This document shows, piece by piece, positions 18,694 to 35,603 of a stretch of 35,603 bases of DNA. Source of the stretch: Bacteroidia bacterium (GTDB taxonomy: Bacteria > Bacteroidota > Bacteroidia > M30B66). The DNA is taken from the NCBI GenBank assembly GCA_019695235.1, contig JAIBAI010000032.1, positions 1-35,603 of the forward strand, given 5' to 3'. The notes under the pieces are model-generated. The model worked only from the letters and a program-made list of their open reading frames with translations. It was not told the origin of the DNA and made no database searches. The number at the start of each line of letters is the position of its first letter. Position 1 is the stretch's first letter. Made by a program: the position numbers and the translations under genes.

Positions 18694-18712
18694 TGGTGTT
18701 AACGTAACACCA
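18694..18712. terminator. Stem-loop between convergent genes
   Basis: TGGTGTTA (18694-18701) pairs perfectly with TAACACCA (18705-18712) around a 3-base loop. It lies 40 bases after the PBP4-like stop and spans the TAA of the giant gene, which reads out of the stem on the minus strand. It has no U-tract on either side, so termination is possible but unproven; protection of 3' ends is an alternative. Confidence 0.35.
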
Positions 18713-21700
18713 GCACCCGTCCCCTTTGTATTCCGGCCCTGCCATCGTATGATAAATAGGTAACAACATAGGTGTACACGTCGTTTTCGACAATTTTACC
18801 CATGTAAGAGCCGTCCCAACTTGCATCAAAGGCATCACTGAAATAAACCATCTCACCAAATCGGTTAAAAATTTTCAATTCAAGAGAGCCTACACCGTAA
18901 TGAATAACCTTGAATTCGTCGTTTTTACCGTCTTTGTTGGGGGTAAACGTATTGGGCAGGTAAATGCCAAATTCACGGTAAATGCCTACCATCATCGTGT
19001 CAAGAACCGGGCAGCCATACATGTCCTGAATCTGTACATAAACCTCACTCGGGTCGAAGAAAACACCATAGGTGTTTTGACAGGTGTCGCATGCCAGTTC
19101 AACCATAGAAACCCAATGGTAGGCGGTGCCACCAATTACATAGGCCAATGCTGTGTCTCCGGCAAATACACTTGTGTCAGGAGAAATTTGAAGGGTAGTG
19201 TCTAACCTGACAATATAGCTGACCTTTGCTGAATCAATCCCACAGCGGTTTTGTGCAGTAAGAAGTGTATGGTAGTCGCCATATTCTGGGTAACATCTTT
19301 CAAAAGTAGGCATGTTTACTGTTGGCCCAATGGTCATATTGTTCCAGAACCACCTTTCTGCACGTTGGGTAATGGCTTCAAAGGTGTAACAATCGTTAAT
19401 ACAGGGGTTCTCAGGAGGAGCAATGATTGTAGCTGTAGGCTTCTCAAGTGTTTTAAGCAAAAGGGTATCCCGGGCAAAACAAGCTTCGAAATTGATTTCA
19501 AGGGCATATAATCCTGAATCTCTGGTAGTTATGAATGTGCTGTCGCTGCCGTCAGACCAAAGGTATTTAGCCAAGGGATGAACCACTGGTTGCAATAAAA
19601 GCGAATCTCCCAGGCAGATGGTAGTATCATTCCCCAGGCTAAACGACAGGTCAAGGCTGTCAATGATAATGGTATCAGCGAAAAAGCAACCCAGCGAGTC
19701 AACAATCAACTCATAAGAACCAGGCGAGAAAATACGAAGCGTATCGGCAGTACTGTTATCGTTCCACTGAAAACTACTTACACCACTAATGCCCGACCTG
19801 ATTACATACCCGTTGGCCAAACACATACTGGTATCGTTGCCCAGGTCAAACGAGTAGCTTAACTCGCTAACATGGGTGCTGTCAGTTAAAACACAGCGCC
19901 CAAGCGTGGCTTTGAGGTAATAGGTGCCGGTGTCGCCAATAAACCTGTTTAGCGTAAAAGCACCATCTAACCATTGGTGGCTTGCTGCGGTACTGATAAG
20001 CGGGTTCAGTTGAACAGTCTGACCCGGGCAGTAAAATGTGTCAGGGGGCAGGTCGAGTTCAAGCGGTATGAATGAAAGGTGCACCGAATCACTGAATATG
20101 CATCCGCCAAGGTCTAAGGTCAGGGTATAACCACCCGTTTGTGTTGCGTATATTTGTGATTCAATTTCACCTGTGTTCCAGCTATAGGTGGCACCCGTAA
20201 TGTTTGTTGATAGCAGAAGGGTGTCGCCGATACAGGTAACACGGTCGTTACCAAGGTTTACGGGATTACCAGTTCTGCTAAGGCTGATATGTTTTACAGC
20301 TTCTACTGTGTCGTTGTTTACCGGATTGATTACCAGTAGTTTAACATCAAATTCGCCTCCATCTGGCGGGAATTCAACCGAAGGGTCTTTTTCATTGCTT
20401 ATTCCTCCGGGGAAATCAAAATCCCATAAATAGCGCAGGTCGGAGCCTGCTGTAGAATAATTGGTGAAGAATATGCTATCGCCATCGCAACTGGGTCTGT
20501 ACAAGAAGTCAGCATTGATTAAGAAAGGGTTGAACGGACTGCAATTGATATCGGTATTGGTGGTAACAGTGTACCTGAATGCCAAAGTACCGACGGCGGT
20601 ATTGGGGTAAACAACCTGGATGTAAAAGGCCCCCATATTGCTATTAATGCATGAGATGCTATTGTTGATAAATGCGTTGTTTGCACATTCCTGACCAACA
20701 ATCATGGTTGAACAGCTACTACCATAGAATAAGCGGTAACGTACATTGCCTGAATTGCCATAATTGCTGAGGTTCGACAGGTTTAGCTGGAAGAGTACGT
20801 CAACCACATCCGAGCCAGTATATTCAAACCTGAACCAGGTGGAGTAATATCCGGCAGGACCGGGCAAGCAGCCCATATTGCTGCCATCTTCACCGAAGCT
20901 ACCGCCAATGGTATTGCAATAAATCAGCGTTTGTGCATTGTACACTCCGGAGCTATTTGCCTCAGTTGCAATGGCATAGGCGCAATCATCTCCGGCATAA
21001 GCTTCTGAAACAAGCACCGGGCGTACAATAGAGGTTTCTCCCGGTGAACAGGTAGCGATATGTACAAAATAAGTTCCGGCCGGAATACAAAAAGAAAGCC
21101 AGTCGAAACCATCCTTGTTTACAATAGAAAGATAGGGTATTTCGGTAAAACCCGTGCTAAGTACAGAGTCGGCCGCATTGTTTTGTGAAAAGAGCCTGAT
21201 ACCTGCGCCTGCGGTGCCTCCGCCTGATTTTTCCAATCTTATTCTGACAACAGATTGCTCACCGGAAACAAATTTATACCAAAGTGATTTCTTAGTGCTC
21301 AGACAGCCTGTATTGTAATTTAAGTCGGCTGCATCGGTTGTAGCGCAGGTAAGGTCGCCCCATGCACCGGTAACCTGGGTATTCAAAGGCAGGCTGTTGC
21401 CGGGATAGGGAGGTGACTGTTGGCCTGAACCGATTTCATTTGCGGTACTGTAATAATCATAAGGCACCACACCGGGGCTATTGTCGAAGAATACCACTGG
21501 TCGTACAATGGAGGTATCCTGAGGGGAGCATGTTGATATGATGATGTAGTATTCACCTGCCGGAAGACAATAGTTAAACCATGTGCCGGAAGCAGAAGCG
21601 GATGTAAATCCGGCAGGTATGTATTCCATACCGCTCCCCAGCAGGGTATCGCCTGGGGTTATTTGCCTGAAAACCTGGGTGTACAATGCCGTCATTGGGA

Positions 21701-24700
21701 TGCCCACCCGGTCGAGGCGGTATTTGAAAAGACCCCGGCGGTCAATTTTCACCTTGTACCAAAGTGTTTTCTTTGTGTTGGTGCATCCCAGGTTGTAGTC
21801 TTTATCGGCATTATCGTTGGTAGCACATGTTAAGTCGCCCCATGCCCCGTTATGCTCGGTATTAGCAGTAATAGGGGAGGTGTTGTAGGGTGGGCCTACC
21901 TGGTTAAAGCCCACTTGATTGGCTGTACTTACGTGGTCATAAGGGGTGTAGCCGGCATCCGGCTCGAAATAAAACAAAGGCCGCAGAACAGTTGTGTCGT
22001 TCTGGTCACAGGTAGAAATTAGCAGGTAGTACTCACCTGCACCCAAACAGAAATTCTGCCACAGTGCTGTATCAGGTAGCGAAGTAAATGTTGGAGGTAT
22101 AACGGTCAGATGGGTTCCCAGAATTGAATCTCCGGCAATCGCCTGACGCAGCAATACAGAACGAATTTGTGAGCCGGGCAGGCTGTCACGGCCTTCTAAG
22201 CGGTAACGTAAAACACCCCGCTGCCCGATATTTATTTTATACCAAACAGTTTTCTTCTCAAGTGTGCAACCAAGGTTATAGGCTTCGTCGGAAGTGTCAG
22301 CAGTGGCACATGAAAGGTCAGACCATTCGCCCTGATGTGTTAGGTTGGGTGCAACCGGATTCGTATTATAGGGGGGAGCGGTTTCGTTGTAGCCCACCTG
22401 GTTGGCATTTGAGTAAAAGTCGTAGGTGGCACTTGAGCCGAAAATGGGCAAGGGTTTGAACTTCACCTGTACATCAATTTGCATCACAGGCAGGGTTTGA
22501 CCTTCATTCAAATCAACCAACACAAAATACCTTCGTTTGATTGTATCAGCAACACACTGGTCTGATTTAAAGCTAAAGCCTGTAACTGGTTGGGCAAGGC
22601 AAGGGGGCAATGGCCATTCGGGCAGGTTGTCGTTAATGAAAGTAAGGCCGGATGCCAGGGTGGAATCTAATTCTCCGGTACTCAGCAAAGTAGGCAAATC
22701 AGGATTCCCGTCGGCATCAGAACGATAAATAGCAAAGGGGGGTATTGCAGTGCGTGTACCATCGTAAAGAGAGGTGAGATTACGTACTCTCACGCTTACA
22801 TCACCCTTGCCCTGAATAACAAAAGAGTACCATAAGTTGCGCCGAACAGCGCCATTGATAGTGTACACATTGTTCGTCTGATCTGGATAAACAGGCGGGT
22901 AGTTTGAGCCCGAACAATTTATTGCAGGGTCACTTGGGGCACTTCCGGTGGTACAGAAATAAAAATCGTTACTCGGCTGCAGGCTGGGGTCAATAGGATG
23001 TACATCACCGATTTTACCTGTCTGAAAAGTGTCAGCAGGCGCAATAAGACCGAAATCATAAGCAGTTGCTGCATAATCGAAGCGTGAAATGCCTACCGAA
23101 TCAACTTGAATAACGGGGGTAACACTGTGACAATCCTGTGCGTCTTCGGCATACACAACCAGGGTATAAGCACCGGGCTGCAAGCGACATACCACCAGGG
23201 TACCAGTAGTATTCGAGCAGGGAATCAACGGGCTGGTAGAAGGAAACAGCATTGAATCTATTCGTACATCCAGTGGATAGACTTCTCTTTTAAATGCACC
23301 TGTTCCGGAAATACGCACATTCATTTCTTCGCCGATTTTGAAGACGAAATAGGAGGTACGTACTGTATTTGCACAACCGATAATTGGGTGAGATGAGAAG
23401 GGGGTGTCTTTTGGTTGCCTGAAATTTTCAGTGCAGAGCGTATAACTTTTACCTCTGGCGCTGATGGCATCTGTTCCGGCGTTGTTCAGAAAGATAGTCT
23501 GGTCGTTGTTGCCAACGCAAGCTTTGTAAGGTCGGTTAAACAGCGGACCTGGTGTAACCGTGGTATCAATGGTGACGGTAATTCGTGTGGGTTGATTCAA
23601 TGAATTGCCAGCATTGTAGGGGTCGCGTGAGTTGGCGTAATCCTGTCCGGAGCCATAGCTAACGATGGTGTACCAGCCAGCTGGCATCAGGTTGCATGTA
23701 GGGGTGGCAAAGCTTCCGTTAAAGCAAGTGGAGCCTGCATCAGCAGCAGAACCTAAACTACCAATTCCGGCAGAAGCCTGACCTTTGAAAATCCTGAAAG
23801 TTGAAAACTGATAGAACTGTTCATTTATAATTACACGCGCATCCTGGCTTAGGTAGAACTCGCGGTAAATTAGCTTGTTACTGTTGTTGCAAGGGGTGTT
23901 CCCTGCGATGTTTGCCGGATTAGAGCGACAAGTGAAGGTGTCAGTCAGTGAAGTCTTTGAAAGGTTCTGTGCAATGACATCACCCAGGTTCTCGGCATTT
24001 GCGGGGTTCCAAAAGCGGGTATTGCGTTTCGACCAGCGGCTGTTTGGCTGGTTAAACATGCCTGATTCGTTGTTGGTTGCAAAGGTGGCCAGGGTGTATT
24101 CGCCCGGTACTAAACAGTAGCGCATGGCGCCTGCGGTGTCGTTGTTATTGTTGTAAACTGCGCAGTTTGATAAAGGTGTAAGGCCAGTAAAACGGTCGGG
24201 CCAAAGCCAGGTATTCTGGGCTTTGGTTAAGTCGCTTGCACTTCCTGAGTATAATACCGAACGGGCATTTTGGTTGCGTGCTGGTTTGTCGTAAATCACA
24301 TTACCTAAAACCACCATACCGCTGTCGCTAATGGTAAATTCGCGGTACTTCGCCCGGTCAATAGAAGGTTTGCAGTTAAAAGCGGCAGGTAAAACCGACT
24401 TCACACAGGGAAATGTGGTGGGTTGAGCCAGATGCAACACATTGTTCTGCAATGGATTACCATTGTTGAGAGAATCAACATCATTTAGTAGCGATAGGGC
24501 AAAATCATTATTACCAGCCGGGGTGACATACAGGTTCAGGTTTACTTTTCGTCCAAACTGCGACTGGCAGGTAAAAGGATTGTTATCATCATATTTGCCC
24601 AGTAACTGGATGCTGTATTTCCCGGCGGGCATACAGGTAAGCGAATAAGTACCATTGCTGCTGGTGACTGCAGCACCGTAAAGGCCGGCTGGATGGTTTA

Positions 24701-25985
24701 GGTTGGCACAATCGTTATCAGGTTGTTGGTTGTACACCCGGATGCCCATGCCGTGGTTAGTGGTGGAGCAGGCGGCAGATTGTACATCAACAGTAAAGGT
24801 GACGTTTGAAGGTTGGTCGAGCTCAAAAGTAAACCAGGTGGTCAGATGGTATCTATTGCCTGAAAGTACCACCTGATTGGCCGGGTTCACAGTACCACAC
24901 TGAATAGAATCATCACTTAGCTGCGATTCACAAGAAAAATAATCGCTTTTGCTTATTGAGGCATTTCCGCCCACCGGTGGACTAATCAGGCCGAAGGTAT
25001 TTAGCGGGCTAAAGCCGGTTTCCTGCGGAATTGCAGCTTGTGTTACACCCTCACCCAATTCGTACAAAAGCAAACGCGACACTGTATTCTCGCGGTAATC
25101 GCCCAAGACTTGTATTGAGTAGGTTGTATTAGGTTTAAATAGCTCACAAGGGATGATGTTGATGTCGTTTTTATTGTGCTCTGAACAACCATAAATTTCT
25201 GAAATACCGCTTATTCCGGCAGTGGCAACGTCGCCCTCATAAATGCGAATTACGTAGCGCCTTGTAACATTGCTTAAAGAAAAGGCAAAAAGGTCAATAT
25301 GGTTGTCGGTTTGAAAGGTGCTCCATGCGCTTTTGGTATAGTTAAGGTAATTTCCTCCTATCGCCTGACACAATTCATCAACAGTTTCGATACTTAGGCA
25401 ATTCCAGTTGATGTTTGTGCCAGCGGTGTCTTTTAAAACACTCAACTGCGTGGGAAATCCGCTTTGATCGTACAATTCAGATTCGGGCGAGTTGGAGAGC
25501 AGTTCAACAAAAATATTTCCGGCGGCGCTACTTCTGGCCAAAACCTGAATGGAGTAGGTGCCCTGATCAAGGCAAATGTTTTCTGAGTAGCTTGACAGAC
25601 TGAACAGGGGGGTGAAGGTGGCCATGTCACCTGCCTGAGGCAAGCCGGGAGTGCCTTGGTATATCACAAAACCCACGTCGTTGCTTTGCATCACTTCAGG
25701 GGTTTGCAATATCCGAACCCTGATTTTTCGGGAGGTTGGAATGGTAAAGCGAAACCAGACAGTTTTGTTGTAAACCGGATTTAAAAGATACTCGCCGGCC
25801 TGAGAGGTAGCAGCGGTTATAGTAACGGTATCACTATAAAAAGTACCAAACTGGTAATTATCAGCACCGAGCATAATATCAGCACGTGCGGCATATTGGT
25901 TGTTAGCAGGTTGTGAAAAACTTGCAAGCGCTGAAAGCAGGAACAGGACAAACAAGACCAAACCGGGTATGTTTCGAGGCCTCAT
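18699..25985 (-). CDS. Giant secreted multi-domain protein with gliding-motility-type C-terminal domain
   Basis: The 2428-residue product starts with a signal peptide (LVLFVLFLLSALASFSQ). The first ~1180 residues are a series of cysteine-containing beta-sandwich modules with the recurring pattern W-F-x-F...A-G-x-Y-S-I-x-V/L, similar to pre-peptidase C-terminal-like domains. Three tandem repeats of ~160 residues follow (about 1185-1662), each with YD-x3-TANQ/E, GAWGDLTCAT, N-x-GC and K-K-x-x-WYK. Next come another such module, a PKD domain (about 1825-1905, with YLWDFDFPGG) and four or five short Ig-like segments with LGNDxxxC. The end (about 2345-2428) is a CHU_C-type domain, YLPNTFTPNKDGKNDEF to RGRVLVLR, which directs type IX export. 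The role is probably adhesion or surface coating; no enzyme motif is seen. A TTG at 25994 would add three residues. Confidence 0.88.
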   Translation of the reverse strand: MRPRNIPGLVLFVLFLLSALASFSQPANNQYAARADIMLGADNYQFGTFYSDTVTITAATSQAGEYLLNPVYNKTVWFRFTIPTSRKIRVRILQTPEVMQSNDVGFVIYQGTPGLPQAGDMATFTPLFSLSSYSENICLDQGTYSIQVLARSSAAGNIFVELLSNSPESELYDQSGFPTQLSVLKDTAGTNINWNCLSIETVDELCQAIGGNYLNYTKSAWSTFQTDNHIDLFAFSLSNVTRRYVIRIYEGDVATAGISGISEIYGCSEHNKNDINIIPCELFKPNTTYSIQVLGDYRENTVSRLLLYELGEGVTQAAIPQETGFSPLNTFGLISPPVGGNASISKSDYFSCESQLSDDSIQCGTVNPANQVVLSGNRYHLTTWFTFELDQPSNVTFTVDVQSAACSTTNHGMGIRVYNQQPDNDCANLNHPAGLYGAAVTSSNGTYSLTCMPAGKYSIQLLGKYDDNNPFTCQSQFGRKVNLNLYVTPAGNNDFALSLLNDVDSLNNGNPLQNNVLHLAQPTTFPCVKSVLPAAFNCKPSIDRAKYREFTISDSGMVVLGNVIYDKPARNQNARSVLYSGSASDLTKAQNTWLWPDRFTGLTPLSNCAVYNNNNDTAGAMRYCLVPGEYTLATFATNNESGMFNQPNSRWSKRNTRFWNPANAENLGDVIAQNLSKTSLTDTFTCRSNPANIAGNTPCNNSNKLIYREFYLSQDARVIINEQFYQFSTFRIFKGQASAGIGSLGSAADAGSTCFNGSFATPTCNLMPAGWYTIVSYGSGQDYANSRDPYNAGNSLNQPTRITVTIDTTVTPGPLFNRPYKACVGNNDQTIFLNNAGTDAISARGKSYTLCTENFRQPKDTPFSSHPIIGCANTVRTSYFVFKIGEEMNVRISGTGAFKREVYPLDVRIDSMLFPSTSPLIPCSNTTGTLVVCRLQPGAYTLVVYAEDAQDCHSVTPVIQVDSVGISRFDYAATAYDFGLIAPADTFQTGKIGDVHPIDPSLQPSNDFYFCTTGSAPSDPAINCSGSNYPPVYPDQTNNVYTINGAVRRNLWYSFVIQGKGDVSVRVRNLTSLYDGTRTAIPPFAIYRSDADGNPDLPTLLSTGELDSTLASGLTFINDNLPEWPLPPCLAQPVTGFSFKSDQCVADTIKRRYFVLVDLNEGQTLPVMQIDVQVKFKPLPIFGSSATYDFYSNANQVGYNETAPPYNTNPVAPNLTHQGEWSDLSCATADTSDEAYNLGCTLEKKTVWYKINIGQRGVLRYRLEGRDSLPGSQIRSVLLRQAIAGDSILGTHLTVIPPTFTSLPDTALWQNFCLGAGEYYLLISTCDQNDTTVLRPLFYFEPDAGYTPYDHVSTANQVGFNQVGPPYNTSPITANTEHNGAWGDLTCATNDNADKDYNLGCTNTKKTLWYKVKIDRRGLFKYRLDRVGIPMTALYTQVFRQITPGDTLLGSGMEYIPAGFTSASASGTWFNYCLPAGEYYIIISTCSPQDTSIVRPVVFFDNSPGVVPYDYYSTANEIGSGQQSPPYPGNSLPLNTQVTGAWGDLTCATTDAADLNYNTGCLSTKKSLWYKFVSGEQSVVRIRLEKSGGGTAGAGIRLFSQNNAADSVLSTGFTEIPYLSIVNKDGFDWLSFCIPAGTYFVHIATCSPGETSIVRPVLVSEAYAGDDCAYAIATEANSSGVYNAQTLIYCNTIGGSFGEDGSNMGCLPGPAGYYSTWFRFEYTGSDVVDVLFQLNLSNLSNYGNSGNVRYRLFYGSSCSTMIVGQECANNAFINNSISCINSNMGAFYIQVVYPNTAVGTLAFRYTVTTNTDINCSPFNPFLINADFLYRPSCDGDSIFFTNYSTAGSDLRYLWDFDFPGGISNEKDPSVEFPPDGGEFDVKLLVINPVNNDTVEAVKHISLSRTGNPVNLGNDRVTCIGDTLLLSTNITGATYSWNTGEIESQIYATQTGGYTLTLDLGGCIFSDSVHLSFIPLELDLPPDTFYCPGQTVQLNPLISTAASHQWLDGAFTLNRFIGDTGTYYLKATLGRCVLTDSTHVSELSYSFDLGNDTSMCLANGYVIRSGISGVSSFQWNDNSTADTLRIFSPGSYELIVDSLGCFFADTIIIDSLDLSFSLGNDTTICLGDSLLLQPVVHPLAKYLWSDGSDSTFITTRDSGLYALEINFEACFARDTLLLKTLEKPTATIIAPPENPCINDCYTFEAITQRAERWFWNNMTIGPTVNMPTFERCYPEYGDYHTLLTAQNRCGIDSAKVSYIVRLDTTLQISPDTSVFAGDTALAYVIGGTAYHWVSMVELACDTCQNTYGVFFDPSEVYVQIQDMYGCPVLDTMMVGIYREFGIYLPNTFTPNKDGKNDEFKVIHYGVGSLELKIFNRFGEMVYFSDAFDASWDGSYMGKIVENDVYTYVVTYLSYDGRAGIQRGRVLVLR
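21000..22440 (-). repeat. Three tandem ~480-base repeats inside the giant gene
   Basis: Repeat units lie at about 21945-22440, 21465-21944 and 21000-21464, with a period near 480 bases. Shared protein landmarks are ANQ/E-I/VG, PPY, W-x-DL-x-CAT, YN-x-GC, KK-x-x-WYK, AGEYY/TYF, and ISTC or IATC followed by VRP. The first two copies are closest; the third has drifted more. They appear to be internally duplicated adhesion-type modules. Boundaries are approximate. Confidence 0.75.
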
Positions 25986-26159
25986 TGTCAGCAATGAATC
26001 GTTAGGTTATTGTTAAACACGCAATATAGCACTTTCTCCGGCCGTGTTTTAACGTTAGTTTTCACTATACGAAGTTAATGAAAAATGATGAAAAACCAAA
26101 ATAAGATTTGCCGGATGGTTTGATTCTCAGTTTTTTATGAAAGTATTTTTTCTGAAAGG
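25986..26159. other. Intergenic gap upstream of the giant gene
   Basis: This 174-base AT-rich stretch separates the giant gene from the glycosyltransferase gene on the same strand. A weak TATATTG lies near 26023-26029 on the minus strand and could be part of a -7 box for the giant gene. I see no hairpin with a U-tract after the glycosyltransferase stop and no small ORF with recognisable features. Confidence 0.4.
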
Positions 26160-29434: not shown

Positions 29435-30919
29435 TTAGTCAGGTTTAAAAGAACGGGTAGCGTTCACGGCCTGAAGCCAGCGATTGTGTAGGTTTTGGCG
29501 TTTTTCTGCATTGATTTGGGGGCTGAAATGTTTATTTATTTGGCGGATGCTTGCGGCTTCTTCTTTGTTTTTCCAGATTCCGGCGGCGATTCCGGCCAGC
29601 ATGGCAGCCCCGGTAGCAGTGGTTTCGAGGTTGGCAGGTCTTTCAATTTGAACATTGTTAAGGTTACTTTGAAACTGCATGAGTAGGTCGCTGGCACTTG
29701 CGCCGCCGTCAACACGCAGGGTTTTCAATTCAATTCCGGAAATCTCCTGCATCAGGTCGAATACATCTTTTGATTGAAATGCCATCGCTTCAAGGGCGGC
29801 ACGCACGATATGACCGGCTTCTGTACCGGCACTGATACCCAAGAATGTGGCTCTTGCTGAAGGATCCCACCAGGGGGCTCCAAGCCCGTTAAATGCCGGA
29901 ACGAAACATACCCCTCCGTTGTCGTTAACCGACATTGCCAGGTTTGCGATATCGGCATTTGATTTAAACAGGTGCAGACTGTCGCGCAGCCACTTCAGGG
30001 CAGCACCGGCGGTAAACACACTGCCTTCAAGGGCATAACATATTTCATTGTTGATTTGCCAGGCGATGGTGCTGAGCAGACCATTCTCAGCAGGTACAGG
30101 GGTTTTACCTGTATTCATCAGCATAAAACATCCGGTTCCGTAGGTGTTTTTTGCCTCACCCGGTTGAAAACAAGCCTGACCGAACAAAGCTGCCTGCTGG
30201 TCGCCGGCTATACCGCAAATAGGGATAGATGCACCCAGTATTTCAGCTTTGGTATGCGCAAAATAACCGGAGCTGGGGAGTACCTGTGGCAGCATGGTGG
30301 CAGGTATCCTGAAAAGGGCAAGTAATTCTTCATCCCAGCGTAAATGGTGAATGTTGAACAGCATGGTTCGGGAAGCATTGCTCACATCGGTGGCATGGAG
30401 GCCTGTGAGTTGCCATAAAATCCATGCATCAACTGTGCCGAATAATAAATCGCCCGATTCTGCCTGCTGGCGTATTTCGGTGCTGTGGTCTAATATCCAG
30501 CTAATTTTACTGGCTGAGAAATAGGCATCCGGGATAAGTCCGGTTTTTTGCCTGATAATTTCACTTTTGTGCAGCCTGGTAAGTTCTTCGATATAAGTGG
30601 CTGATTGGCGGCTTTGCCAAACGATGGCCGGATACACAGGTTTGCCTGAGTGTTTATTCCACACGATGCTGGTTTCGCGTTGGTTAGTGATGCCGATGCC
30701 GGCGATTTCACTAAGCTGAACCCCTGATAGCTGAATACATTCATTGCAGGTTTTCAGTACTGACTGCCAGATTTCAAAAGGGTCTTGTTCAACCCAGCCC
30801 GGTTGTGGGTATGATTGGTTGATTTCATGTTGTGCTAGGGCGCGAATTTCACCCTGTTGATCGAACAGCAAGGCCCTGGTACTACTGGTTCCCTGGTCAA
30901 TAGCAAGTACGTATGGCAT
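29435..30919 (-). CDS. glpK: Glycerol kinase
   Basis: GlpK phosphorylates glycerol to sn-glycerol 3-phosphate with ATP, feeding phospholipid synthesis or glycolysis. The 494-residue product is full length. It begins YVLAIDQGTSSTRALLFD (the FGGY N-terminal ATPase motif) and contains GWVEQDPFEIW, GITNQRETSIVW, the GTVDAWILWQLTG segment and GGVCFVPAFNGLGAPWWDP (about 344-362). The second FGGY signature region with LRVDGGASASDLLMQFQ is near 412-428. No glpF or glpD gene is adjacent. The stop is 64 bases before the GWxTD start, a gap that holds the GWxTD promoter. Confidence 0.97.
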   Translation of the reverse strand: MPYVLAIDQGTSSTRALLFDQQGEIRALAQHEINQSYPQPGWVEQDPFEIWQSVLKTCNECIQLSGVQLSEIAGIGITNQRETSIVWNKHSGKPVYPAIVWQSRQSATYIEELTRLHKSEIIRQKTGLIPDAYFSASKISWILDHSTEIRQQAESGDLLFGTVDAWILWQLTGLHATDVSNASRTMLFNIHHLRWDEELLALFRIPATMLPQVLPSSGYFAHTKAEILGASIPICGIAGDQQAALFGQACFQPGEAKNTYGTGCFMLMNTGKTPVPAENGLLSTIAWQINNEICYALEGSVFTAGAALKWLRDSLHLFKSNADIANLAMSVNDNGGVCFVPAFNGLGAPWWDPSARATFLGISAGTEAGHIVRAALEAMAFQSKDVFDLMQEISGIELKTLRVDGGASASDLLMQFQSNLNNVQIERPANLETTATGAAMLAGIAAGIWKNKEEAASIRQINKHFSPQINAEKRQNLHNRWLQAVNATRSFKPD

Positions 30920-31103: not shown

Positions 31104-31388
31104 ATGAACTCCCGAAGGCAGGTAAGGTGTAACGGTTGCAAACAGTGGAATTTCACTGAGGATACGCAAGGCCAATGTTTACATTGTGGCAATGAGTTAT
31201 TTCCGAAGAGCAAGGCAGATGAAGAAAGCCTTCTGCGCCGTCAGCAAGCCTGGAACCTAAATATTGTTATTCACCCTGATGATTCGCTTTTGGTGCGCAT
31301 GGTGAAAAAAGTTGCAAATGTGGTTCAGTTGGTTTTTCTGGCAATTATCAGCTTCATTATGTGGCTTATTGCCATGAGTCCGGGATGA
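31104..31388 (+). CDS. Zinc-ribbon small membrane protein
   Basis: The 94-residue protein begins with a CxxC-x12-CxxC zinc ribbon (C9, C12, C25 and C28, in VRCNGCKQW and CLHCGNELF). A charged linker and one hydrophobic helix (about 71-90) end the protein. The ribbon would face the cytoplasm if the helix is an anchor. I recognise no function; Bacteroidota carry similar uncharacterised proteins. Its TGA overlaps the ATG of the next gene by 4 bases (ATGA), so the two are translated as a pair. Confidence 0.78.
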   Translation: MNSRRQVRCNGCKQWNFTEDTQGQCLHCGNELFPKSKADEESLLRRQQAWNLNIVIHPDDSLLVRMVKKVANVVQLVFLAIISFIMWLIAMSPG

Positions 31389-31756
31389 TGATACGCCGTT
31401 TTTCACATTGGCTGTTTGTCATCTTTGGTGCAGTGTATCTGGTGAATCGTTTATGGTTGAGACCAAGCGGCTTTGCTTTCGTAGATTTTTACCTTAATGA
31501 CCTGCTCTGTATGCCACTTGTTTTGTATTGTACAAGAATTTGCATGGTACTGATTTACAGCGCACCCAATTTGCATATTCCGGTCAAATATATTGTCGTT
31601 GCAACTTTTTATCTGGGATGGGTGTTTGAGTGGCTGCTTCCGGCCTGGTCGCCCCGGTACACTGCCGACCCGTTTGACTTGTTGATGTATATATTTGGCG
31701 CCTTGTTGTTTCTGTTTTGGCAGAGGTTATTTGTGCAAAAGCTACAGGCTGGATAG
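31385..31756 (+). CDS. Small four-helix membrane protein
   Basis: The 123-residue protein is very hydrophobic, with about four membrane helices (about 6-24, 32-50, 64-82 and 96-113) and FYLNDLLCMPLVL in the second. Bacteroidota homologues are, from memory, sometimes labelled magnesium-citrate secondary transporter, but nothing in a protein this small shows transport, so I give no such name. The ATG at 31385 overlaps the stop of the zinc-ribbon gene by 4 bases. The function of the pair is unknown. Confidence 0.72.
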   Translation: MMIRRFSHWLFVIFGAVYLVNRLWLRPSGFAFVDFYLNDLLCMPLVLYCTRICMVLIYSAPNLHIPVKYIVVATFYLGWVFEWLLPAWSPRYTADPFDLLMYIFGALLFLFWQRLFVQKLQAG

Positions 31757-31814: not shown

Positions 31815-31847
31815 GATAAAATTTTATCTTTGACCTATCAGATAAAA
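31815..31847 (+). promoter_or_regulatory. Nested GATAAAA palindromes over the SIR2 gene's -7 box
   Basis: GATAAAATTTTATC (31815-31828) is a perfect 14-base palindrome. Its right half is also the left arm of a perfect inverted repeat, TTTTATCT/AGATAAAA (31822-31829 and 31840-31847), with a 10-base spacer. TATCTTTG (31825-31832) in the middle matches the -7 box TAnnTTTG. Three GATAAAA half-sites therefore surround a promoter element 116 bases before the SIR2-like ATG. This is the arrangement of an operator that blocks transcription, although a hairpin or AT-rich chance symmetry is possible. Confidence 0.45.
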
Positions 31848-31947: not shown

Positions 31948-33093
31948 ATGAAAGCTGTATTGTTATTAGGCTCTGGCTTTTCTAGCCCTGCAGGATATAA
32001 AATGGTTCCTGAAATAAACAATGAATTCTTAACCAACCAAAAAATTCGAAATCCAGACAATTATGGTTGTGATGGTGCTGAGTTCTGGTATATCGGAAAG
32101 CCTTCCCCAAATCGTGAGATTTACCGATGGCGTGTACAACCATCTCTTCATTATTTGTTTAGTTGTATTGACAAATATGCTTCTGTCAGTCTATTTGACT
32201 ACGAGTGGTTTTACCAATATTTTTTAGATAATGAGCACCTGGAACTACCGGACGATAATACTTACCAGAACTGTCTCACCTTATACAAGCTAATTGCCAA
32301 AGAACTAATTGCAGAACGCAATAAGCCATGCATGGAATCACATTACACGGGCTTTATAGATTTTTGCAAGGAGTTACATCAAGAAATGGTTGACGTAACT
32401 ATTGCAACATTTAATCATGATAGCTTGTTGGAGTCATTGTTTTCAAAGAATGACATACCTTACTCAGATGGCTTTTCATTTGAAGGAAGTAAAATATTTG
32501 CTTCCAGTGAATATTTGAATGGCAAGAACTATGACAAAGCCTTAGAAAACAATAAAGTAAGAGAATTCAACGGTCAATTTGGCACAGATTCAGTTAAAGT
32601 AATTCATCTTCACGGGGCTTTTGACCATTTGCGATTGCATCAAGCGGTTGACAGTACCAATCTAAATTCCTTTTGGATAAAAAAGTCAGAACTACCTGAA
32701 AGCACTTATTACAGTAGAAATCTTTATATATTGAACCTTGAAACGAATCAATTTAAACATCAGCCGTTTTATTCTTCAAACGATTTTTTAGTTGGAAAGA
32801 ATATAAAAGATAAAAATTTATTAGGAGATATGAATTACCAACGATGCCTTGAGCTCTTTAAAAGTTCCTTGCAAGCTGCAACTCACTTATTATCAATTGG
32901 ATTCAGCTTCGGAGATGACCATATTGTAAGCTATATTAATGAATATTGCGGTAAGGATGTGGCAATTTCTCTATTTGGAAAAAGAGATATGTCTACGGTC
33001 CTTCATTCAAAATTTTCACCGATGCTTATCAAAGAGCACCTTGGTGAGATTGACTTTAAGAAGGTTAAAAATGGCATATTGCCTATCGTGTAA
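31948..33093 (+). CDS. SIR2-like NAD-binding protein (candidate defence gene)
   Basis: The 381-residue protein has the SIR2-like core in order: LLLGSGFSSPAG at residues 5-16, TFNHDSLLES at 154-163 (N156 and D158), IHLHGAFD at 219-226 with candidate catalytic H222, and LLSIGFSFGDDHI at 314-326. SIR2-like domains of this type act in several antiphage systems by destroying NAD+ when infection is sensed. No additional sensor domain, membrane segment or HerA-type partner is seen, so it appears to be a single-gene unit. The gene is visibly richer in A and T than the genes to its left, suggesting transfer. A GTG at 31945 is also in frame; the ATG at 31948 was chosen. It converges with the M48/hsdR pair. 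Confidence 0.83.
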   Translation: MKAVLLLGSGFSSPAGYKMVPEINNEFLTNQKIRNPDNYGCDGAEFWYIGKPSPNREIYRWRVQPSLHYLFSCIDKYASVSLFDYEWFYQYFLDNEHLELPDDNTYQNCLTLYKLIAKELIAERNKPCMESHYTGFIDFCKELHQEMVDVTIATFNHDSLLESLFSKNDIPYSDGFSFEGSKIFASSEYLNGKNYDKALENNKVREFNGQFGTDSVKVIHLHGAFDHLRLHQAVDSTNLNSFWIKKSELPESTYYSRNLYILNLETNQFKHQPFYSSNDFLVGKNIKDKNLLGDMNYQRCLELFKSSLQAATHLLSIGFSFGDDHIVSYINEYCGKDVAISLFGKRDMSTVLHSKFSPMLIKEHLGEIDFKKVKNGILPIV

Positions 33094-33159: not shown

Positions 33160-33843
33160 TCATAATGACATTTTTACTCCATTCCTTTTTAACCAATCTT
33201 CATGTTCACGATAATTGGGCATTTTCTTGTCTAATTCATTCCAAAATTCAGGTGAGTGATTTGGATGCTTTAAATGAACCATTTCGTGGGTAATGATGTA
33301 GTCCAGCACCGAAACAGGTGCCATGATACATTTCCAGTGAAAATTTAGTCCGTTTTTAGGTGTCCATGATGCCCAACGGTTTTGAAGTTCCAAAACTTTG
33401 ATGGCTGTTGGTTTCGTTTGAAATTTTTCTTCTATCAGTTTAATTCGTTCCTGAATTTTTTGAAGTCCCTTTGCACGATAGAAATCCTTAAAAACCTTTT
33501 CCGCTTTAGGTAAATACTTTTTGTCAAGGTGAAAGAAGCCGCCTGAAATTTTCAATGGCACATCTTGATTCTCGGTTAGTTGTAATCGGTAGTTTCTGCC
33601 CAAATAAAGAAAGGATTGCCCATTAACATATTCACGTTTTACTTTGCCTTGATTAAGTTCTTTCCATTTAGCCAGTTTCTGAAATATCTGATACTCTTTT
33701 GCTTTTACAGCAGCTTCTATTTTCTCATCGCTGGCTGTAAGCGGGGCAAGCACTTTTACCGAACCGTTTCGTTCAATGAAAATGCTTACCGTTTTTCTCC
33801 TTTCGGTTTTTTCAATATCAATATTTATGCTGTCTAACTTCAT
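33160..33843 (-). CDS. SprT/YgjP-type M48-like metallopeptidase
   Basis: The 227-residue protein has the zinc-binding HEMVH motif (H186, E187, H190) in ITHEMVHLKHPNHSPEFW, preceded by LQNRWASWTPKNGLNFHWK. That is the signature of the YgjP/DUF45 metallopeptidase family. The ATG overlaps the hsdR stop by 4 bases (ATGA), so it is made from the same mRNA as the restriction subunit. Genes of this kind often accompany type I restriction systems. Its substrate is unknown; processing or turnover of the restriction complex is one possibility. No signal peptide is present. Confidence 0.9.
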   Translation of the reverse strand: MKLDSINIDIEKTERRKTVSIFIERNGSVKVLAPLTASDEKIEAAVKAKEYQIFQKLAKWKELNQGKVKREYVNGQSFLYLGRNYRLQLTENQDVPLKISGGFFHLDKKYLPKAEKVFKDFYRAKGLQKIQERIKLIEEKFQTKPTAIKVLELQNRWASWTPKNGLNFHWKCIMAPVSVLDYIITHEMVHLKHPNHSPEFWNELDKKMPNYREHEDWLKRNGVKMSL

Positions 33844-35603
33844 CTTAATTCTGCTTCACGGTTTTTAGCCAACTTCAAAAGTTCTGTTGTCAATTCTGCC
33901 GCTTTTCCAGTCAATCCGTTGATTCTTGAATAATAAATTTCATCTTCTATTCGACCAGAAATCAAACGCTGTTCTGCCGGTTTATTCCAGAAATTATTTA
34001 TCTGTGCTGTTTCTTTCAGAATGAGTATCAAAGTATGTGACAATTCCTTTGTTTTCTCAATCTCTTTTTCATCTTCGGTAGGCAATGCAGATTTCAGAAT
34101 TTCATAAAATGGTGCTTCAACAACTGAAACGCCTTCGGTTTCAACCTTTCTTCCTTCTGCCATTTCTTCTCGTAACCCTTCAAGCTGCTTTACTATTTCC
34201 TCCCAATTCTCTTTGTAAGAATTCAATATCGTTTCAAGTCGGTCTTTGAATCGGTTGTATAGTGTTGGGTCTTTTTCAAGATTTACCTTGATGTGCCAGC
34301 GAATGGCGTGTTCCATTTCAGAAGCCTTCGATTTTGGCGTTTTGTTCAGGTAATCAACCTTGGTTTTGAACTCATCTGAAAGAATAGAAACCTGTTGAAC
34401 TTTTGTGTCAATTCCCAAAGAATACAAATGTTTGTCAATTAGCTGGCGGACTTTCTGTGAAGCCCATTTCAAGTCCATTGTTTCGTCTTTGTAGCGGTCT
34501 TTGATTCTCCATAGCAAGTAACCCAATCGTTTCGCAATTACCCAATATTCGCCACCTGCTTGTGTATTGAAAAGCAAGTCCAAACTATCGAAAAAGCTTT
34601 TAGAATAGGTAAGTAATTCGGCTCTGAACTTTATATTCTTGGCTTGCTCTATACAACTTTCTGCAAACTCAAATTCGGCTGTTGGGTCTGTAAATTTCTG
34701 ATTCAGGAAGTTTTCAATTTCGTTTAGATTATTCTCTGTAAACAGATTCAATACCCTTTTATAGCGGGCTTCCAAAACAGGAATTTCTTTGTTGATGTCA
34801 CGGAACACATTCAGGAAGTGCTGTGCTTTTTCTTTGTCCTTGTCGGTATAAATTCCTAAGGCTTGCTGCAAATGTTTAGTGATTCCGATATAGTCAACAA
34901 TAAGCCCAAAGGTTTTTCCCTTTTTGGTTCTGTTTACTCTTGTTATGGCTTGGAACAAGTCATGTTCTCTCATGATTTTATCTAAATACATCACCTGCTC
35001 AACGGGTGCATCAAAGCCTGTCAGCAGCCTGTCGCAAACGCATAAAATTCCAATGCCTGATTCCGGCTTTTTGTATTGTCCGCCTTCTTCCTGCGAGTAA
35101 TCAAAATCCTTTTTAAAACTGTTTACGGCATCCCAATCTTTTGCTTCATTTCTTGCCTTGCTGATGTAACCGGGTTCATTATTGCCCATGCCCGAAACAA
35201 CAGCAGCCACTTTCAAAAATTCCAGTTGCTTAATGCGATCATCATCTCTTTCTCCATCCGGCAACGCCTTCAATGCAGCAATCTTGTTTTTAATGGCTGT
35301 TTCCAATTCATACTTGTATCGAACGGCTGCCACAATGCTTGAAGCCACTACTTGTGCTTTAAAGCCATTCACCAAAATATCGGTGTAATAGTGTTCTACA
35401 ATGTCTTTGGCTATTTCAGCAATGCGGTCTTTACTTTCGAGATAGGCAATAAATGAACCGTAACGCCTTTGAATTTCTTCTCTTTCTTCCTGTGTTCTTT
35501 TTTGAAACAAGTCTTCAAACTCGGTATCAAAGAGTTCTTTATCATCTATTTTATCGTTTGATACTTTTCCAATATACTTTATTTCAACGGTGGCTCTGTC
35601 GGC
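33840..35603 (-). CDS. hsdR: Type I restriction enzyme R subunit (HsdR), C-terminal part, partial
   Basis: The frame is open from the window's right edge to a TGA at 33840, giving 587 residues of the C-terminal part. The second RecA-like helicase domain is visible, with DRLLTGFDAPVEQVMYLDK (motif V region) and DLFQAITRVNRT (motif VI). The helical C-terminal region that contacts the methylase core follows. HsdR cuts DNA after ATP-driven translocation when bound to HsdM and HsdS. The N-terminal nuclease and the first helicase half, and any hsdM and hsdS genes, lie beyond the window, so completeness of the system cannot be judged. A TTG at 35510 is internal and not a start. Confidence 0.92.
   Translation of the reverse strand, partial: ADRATVEIKYIGKVSNDKIDDKELFDTEFEDLFQKRTQEEREEIQRRYGSFIAYLESKDRIAEIAKDIVEHYYTDILVNGFKAQVVASSIVAAVRYKYELETAIKNKIAALKALPDGERDDDRIKQLEFLKVAAVVSGMGNNEPGYISKARNEAKDWDAVNSFKKDFDYSQEEGGQYKKPESGIGILCVCDRLLTGFDAPVEQVMYLDKIMREHDLFQAITRVNRTKKGKTFGLIVDYIGITKHLQQALGIYTDKDKEKAQHFLNVFRDINKEIPVLEARYKRVLNLFTENNLNEIENFLNQKFTDPTAEFEFAESCIEQAKNIKFRAELLTYSKSFFDSLDLLFNTQAGGEYWVIAKRLGYLLWRIKDRYKDETMDLKWASQKVRQLIDKHLYSLGIDTKVQQVSILSDEFKTKVDYLNKTPKSKASEMEHAIRWHIKVNLEKDPTLYNRFKDRLETILNSYKENWEEIVKQLEGLREEMAEGRKVETEGVSVVEAPFYEILKSALPTEDEKEIEKTKELSHTLILILKETAQINNFWNKPAEQRLISGRIEDEIYYSRINGLTGKAAELTTELLKLAKNREAELR

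Follow-up and report, generated by a model that had tools for sequence, protein, structure and literature searches.

A stand-alone SIR2_2-class protein with an NHD motif as a candidate NADase effector beside a type I restriction locus in a Bacteroidia genome

Introduction

SIR2 effectors of known defence systems either have a partner (HerA, pAgo, ThsB) or carry a fused sensor (DSR, Avs5). Here we describe a SIR2-like protein of 381 residues from a Bacteroidia bacterium with neither feature visible. The window analysed, 35,603 nucleotides, comprises the entire contig C35; the genome (2.83 Mb) is assembled in 116 contigs.

The SIR2 subunit of SIR2-HerA/Nezha (PDB 8yhx, 8w9l, 8sub, 8uae, 8j4u) has the same full-length single-domain fold, Asn/His pocket and length class as our protein, which nevertheless lacks a HerA partner, has NHD for NYD, is only about 15–19% identical and falls in a separate clade. 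DSR1/DSR2 and ThsA, both anti-phage NADase effectors, share with it a SIR2_2 domain and equivalent catalytic residues. DSR2, however, has a large C-terminal sensor region, whereas the SIR2 fold fills the 381-aa chain of our protein, and ThsA has a C-terminal SLOG domain, for which our protein has no Pfam match, its SIR2 match reaching the C-terminus. No TIR match of the Thoeris ThsB kind was found by Pfam in the adjoining genes. The SIR2 folds of SPARSA SIR2-APAZ and Kongming KomC match our protein at Z about 14.5–15, but APAZ/pAgo or other Kom partner genes are absent from the window. The SIRim/SIR2_2 class, which includes the vertebrate FAM118A/B proteins, belongs to the same Pfam class and lacks the zinc module (PMC12700824), a kinship at class level only; our protein fits its sequence features (domain score, GxGxS loop, catalytic Asn and His, no zinc module). 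Canonical sirtuin deacylases, in contrast, have a zinc ribbon with two CxxC pairs. Because the defining features of SIR2-HerA, DSR, Thoeris and sirtuins are not found in it, we regard the protein as an NHD-clade, stand-alone form of the known SIR2 defence effectors.

Results

An intact gene for a divergent SIR2_2 protein

The gene occupies positions 31948..33093 of the forward strand as an intact ORF free of frameshifts and internal stops. Its start codon is ATG 31948, with an in-frame GTG one codon upstream. We annotate the product as a SIR2_2 (SIR2-like) protein and stand-alone candidate NADase effector on the basis of Pfam PF13289, PADLOC SIR2 models and AlphaFold; by Pfam and AlphaFold a single SIR2-like domain spans the whole chain. 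Pfam SIR2_2 was matched at residues 151–332 with 28.9 bits against a curated cut-off of 24.5, and 18 PADLOC models of SIR2 type matched the protein (best 1.1e-10), which puts the SIR2 assignment above chance. Since an NCBIfam search returned no family and phmmer with the single protein found no match in PDB, it should be viewed as a divergent SIR2_2 member. Searches for Rfam families and tRNAs gave no match. A promoter-like TAnnTTTG site at 31825–31832 carries no weight, the pattern being no more frequent in the window than expected by chance.

The catalytic motif is NHD throughout the clade

The first-pass annotation had recognised the core SIR2 motifs and proposed N156 and H222 as catalytic, and both residues turned out to be invariant in the clade. 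The Rossmann NAD-binding loop G8-S-G10-F-S12 (31969..31983, +) has G8, G10, F11 and S12 invariant in 43–46 clade members. The catalytic Asn motif N156-H157-D158 (32413..32421, +), a clade-specific NHD for NYD, and the catalytic His motif H222-G223 (32611..32616, +) are invariant as well. They are followed by a clade-conserved core segment, D279-FLVGKNI-K287 (32782..32808, +), with F280, G283 and K287 invariant or nearly so, and by the C-terminal Rossmann motif of SIR2_2, G318-FSFG-D323 (32899..32916, +), with G318 and D323 96% conserved. The full invariant set in an alignment of 46 sequences comprises G8, G10, F11, S12, Y85, E86, N156, H157, D158, G175, L221, H222, G223, F280 and G283; a second alignment confirmed it and added K287.

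The catalytic counterparts are N133-Y134-D135 in DSR2 and N112-Y113-D114 in ThsA, and those of H222 are DSR2 H171 and ThsA H152 (PMC11263360). The middle residue of the Asn motif is the point of departure. All clade members have His there, whereas Tyr occupies the position in DSR2, ThsA and the majority of other SIR2-like proteins sampled; in a few of the more distant ones it is Ile, Phe or Trp. Apparent 'SFNYE' or 'TFNYE' matches in our residue census lie elsewhere in the protein, and alignment gives NHD in those proteins too. Judged from the alignments, NHD for NYD is a marked, clade-wide change. The Y134A substitution reduces the activity of DSR2 (PMC11263360), which counts against an active NADase here, although His could substitute for Tyr in the motif.

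The predicted structure is closest to the SIR2 subunit of SIR2-HerA

Two AlphaFold models of the protein agree with each other (pLDDT 80.3 and 82.1, pTM 0.84). Compared with known SIR2 defence proteins, a check that the earlier annotation had proposed, the model is matched best and over its full length by SIR2 subunits of SIR2-HerA (Z 17–22, 275–294 residues, 3.2–4.3 Å), the top match having Z 22.0 at 3.2 Å over 279 residues. Matches to SIRT5, ThsA, DSR2, KomC and SPARSA are lower (Z 14–15), as are those to CobB and SIRT2, and a viral structure library gave weak sirtuin-type matches only. A profile of the clade run against PDB sequences was confident only for SIR2 chains of SIR2-HerA (8.4e-15 to 1.8e-9), with KomC-like chains reaching only about 0.006.

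The middle of the protein (residues 165–215 and 225–300) had been described as resembling no familiar domain. This does not hold for the region as a whole, as the SIR2-HerA match covers the entire chain and residues 276–300 belong to the conserved core; residues 181–215 and 227–275 are variable and may form contact or sensing surfaces.

A sparse, mostly Bacteroidota clade

No relative exceeds about 30% identity over the length of the protein. Profile searches recovered 44 loci from named genomes, nearly all of them Bacteroidota, and Pfam SIR2_2 was matched at 1e-3 by 35 of the 43 clade members. The distribution is sporadic: among 395 genomes sampled across the phylum Bacteroidota, four (the source genome being one) have a clear full-length member, and a protein search gave no match in any other genome of the same family. 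Phage, plasmid and IMG/VR collections yielded no close homologues, and relaxed plasmid matches were weak. Two further candidates (L004 and L009) were discarded as chance matches; judged by eye, they are a repeat-type protein and a glycine-dehydrogenase-like region.

In the tree, the protein lies inside a group of 48 rows (support 99/94), apart from SIR2-HerA-like sequences. The rows closest to it are L054, G420 and G467, with weak support (91/69); the protein's own branch is long (2.05), and it is at most 29% identical to any relative. The protein is a member of a little-described, mostly Bacteroidota NHD branch of a well-known SIR2 enzyme class.

The gene lies at the edge of a defence island

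To the left of the SIR2 gene lie glpK (29435–30919, –) and two small host genes (31104..31756, +), which delimit the island on the left and stand outside the system. This glpK-small94-small131 block is kept in 5 of 7 fetched regions from the same family, and there it is followed by other genes, with no SIR2 or restriction-modification (R-M) homologue; the SIR2 and R-M genes therefore look inserted after 31756. We did not find in the source genome the transporter-like protein that comes next after the host block in relatives, and a helicase further along in relatives is split here over two other contigs.

To the right, and convergent to the SIR2 gene, are genes for a YgjP-like metallopeptidase (33160..33843, –; Pfam PF01863, 184.8 bits) and the type I restriction subunit HsdR (33840..35603, –; Pfam PF22679 and PF11867, NCBIfam TIGR00348, partial, PADLOC REase_I 1.1e-36). 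Only the C-terminal part of hsdR is present, as the contig ends inside it, 2.5 kb from the SIR2 gene. The YgjP gene and the end of hsdR share 4 bases, and the two genes apparently form one operon. The type I restriction locus reported beside the gene is thus real. Another contig (C73, 4.3 kb) has the gene order AbiEi-AbiEii-hsdM-hsdS, with hsdS truncated, and probably continues the island at the other end of YgjP-hsdR, a join that we infer. The AbiEi/AbiEii pair there (L043, G000:C73, 2097–3724) is directly upstream of hsdM.

G+C content is 0.348 at 32001–33000 versus about 0.43–0.50 across 27–31 kb on the left. The gene is indeed richer in A and T than its left neighbours, as first noted, but because hsdR and YgjP on the right also have 0.36–0.40, low G+C characterises the island as a whole.

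Neighbourhoods of relatives

For 42 loci we collected the flanking genes, at most two per side. The 148 neighbour proteins matched 210 PADLOC families against 35 for 128 proteins from arbitrary regions; PADLOC models are redundant and the control matches are mostly housekeeping look-alikes (DndA/IscS, RecD), so the difference is an indication and no test. Defence genes look commoner beside relatives than beside random genes. Relatives adjoin type III Mod/Res (G107), McrBC-type (G470) and PLD-helicase plus IIG methylase (G467) genes, as well as type I R-M genes, and an N6 DNA methylase was found at three neighbours. Many relatives, on the other hand, have no recognisable defence gene (R-M or Abi) within two genes. 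An association of homologues with defence islands, raised at the outset as a matter for neighbourhood statistics, is thus favoured by the counts and weakened by the many loci without a defence gene.

Discussion

We consider it fairly probable that the protein is a single-protein, latent NAD+ hydrolase of the SIR2_2 class that would act by phage-triggered NAD+ depletion and abortive infection, in the manner of SIR2-HerA, DSR2 and ThsA. The enzyme would be kept inactive in healthy cells, and phage infection would activate it, probably by way of an altered oligomeric state or a bound phage component; the active form would then deplete NAD+ and halt the infected cell. Sensing would be placed in the helical inserts or on the variable 181–215 and 227–275 surfaces. 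The NADase reaction, the phage trigger and self-sufficiency are all things that we infer, with unequal backing: catalysis is well supported by homology, phage triggering moderately, from the island setting, and one-gene defence is a plausible hypothesis.

The proposal of a single-gene defence system was made on first reading of the locus. In its favour, the gene stands alone, its active site is intact, it lies in a restriction/abortive-infection island and its structural kin are proven anti-phage NADases. The absence of usual partners and extra domains was also borne out, with no HerA, Argonaute or ThsB visible. The clade, however, is not uniformly single-gene, since some members have an operon partner: a recurrent partner occurs in 12 of 44 loci, –3 to 64 bp from the SIR2 gene, while most relatives stand alone.

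These partners bear on a reading that we find rather unlikely yet worth weighing, in which the protein would supply the NADase effector of a two-component system, with the sensor or activator encoded in trans or in unassembled island sequence. HerA, pAgo and ThsB serve other SIR2 effectors, and the single-domain SIR2 of SIR2-HerA, which has the same fold, works with its partner. A trypsin-like protease (five loci), a small 'SPSDV' protein (three) and a second SIR2-like gene (five) adjoin SIR2 genes of the clade, and the contig ends inside hsdR. Against this, our SIR2 gene has no co-directional downstream neighbour and runs convergent to the R-M operon, and most relatives have no conserved partner. 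The sole HerA-type (DUF87) match in the source genome is weak and lies outside the window, on contig C23; in the 38 relative genomes searched, with contig identity judged from coordinates and lengths, no such match could be located next to the SIR2 gene.

It is improbable that the gene is a decaying or inactive copy whose ORF is intact but whose catalysis is lost. The suspicion arises from the long branch and from six substitutions at sites where the clade shows little or no variation: P18K, L155F, K220H, S224A, Y319F and N327V. Two of these, K220H and S224A, surround the His motif, and N327V falls just after G318-FSFG-D323, at an Asn invariant in relatives. Because of these departures the activity may be altered. 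N156, D158, H222 and the G-x-G-x-S loop are nevertheless intact, the frame is undisturbed, and AlphaFold folds the protein with good confidence.

We give little credence to a role as a NADase toxin that guards the adjacent type I R-M/AbiE island and fires on inhibition of restriction, with no direct phage sensing. The SIR2 gene does directly adjoin the hsdR-YgjP operon on its 3′ side, and relatives occur beside type III, IIG, McrBC-type and type I systems. This very variety of R-M types, together with the lack of R-M within two genes of most relatives, makes a specific coupling unlikely, and islands gather defence genes without functional coupling.

A housekeeping role as a canonical sirtuin-like deacylase, suggested by the sirtuin Rossmann fold and the SIRT5, CobB and SIRT2 matches, is highly improbable, as both sequence and structure are nearer to the SIR2_2 defence class, the occurrence is sporadic, and the seven Cys residues include no CxxC-type pair, so that the protein is without the zinc module of deacylases. 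That module is required for deacetylation and is missing from SIR2_2 proteins (PMC12700824), and by its residues the protein is probably a NADase rather than a deacetylase.

If the single-protein NAD+ hydrolase reading is true, a one-domain, phage-sensing SIR2 would rank with the smallest of these systems and give a clean model for how SIR2 NADases are restrained and then activated. For the clade as a whole we offer a broader view only tentatively, and with more doubt than belief: a distinct NHD clade in which one domain of ~380–420 aa would serve as both sensor and NAD-consuming effector, with partners added in some lineages, and in which the His may alter the reaction or its products. The question that the clade raises is whether a His in place of DSR2 Tyr134 changes the chemistry.

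Additional observations

A trypsin-like protease gene is found directly upstream of the SIR2 relative, co-directional and at –3 to 64 bp, in five loci from different Bacteroidota families (L056:8341-9945, L061:8018-9865, L064:720-1811, L072:1028-2221, L080:8760-9914); several copies have a signal-peptide-like start. We came across no trypsin-SIR2 defence pair in the literature searched. The 'SPSDV' small protein (start 'RIIKVVIASPSDVV...' or similar) is encoded 5–18 bp downstream of the SIR2 relative in three loci (L060:11232-11783, L072:3548-4123, L083:3270-3830). By eye it resembles DUF4062, a group of TIR-like NADases (Swarozyc, PMC13174449), but there is no Pfam match at 1e-4, and we assign it to no family. 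The second, divergent SIR2-like gene adjoins the SIR2 relative at L055:11187-11780, L058:11187-12473, L070:11187-12473, L063:1570-2775 and L086:8834-9973. Unrelated to the SIR2 finding, positions 18699–25994 of the window encode a repeat-rich, probably secreted protein of 2431 aa with a gliding-type C-terminal domain ('NTFTPNKDGKNDEFKV').
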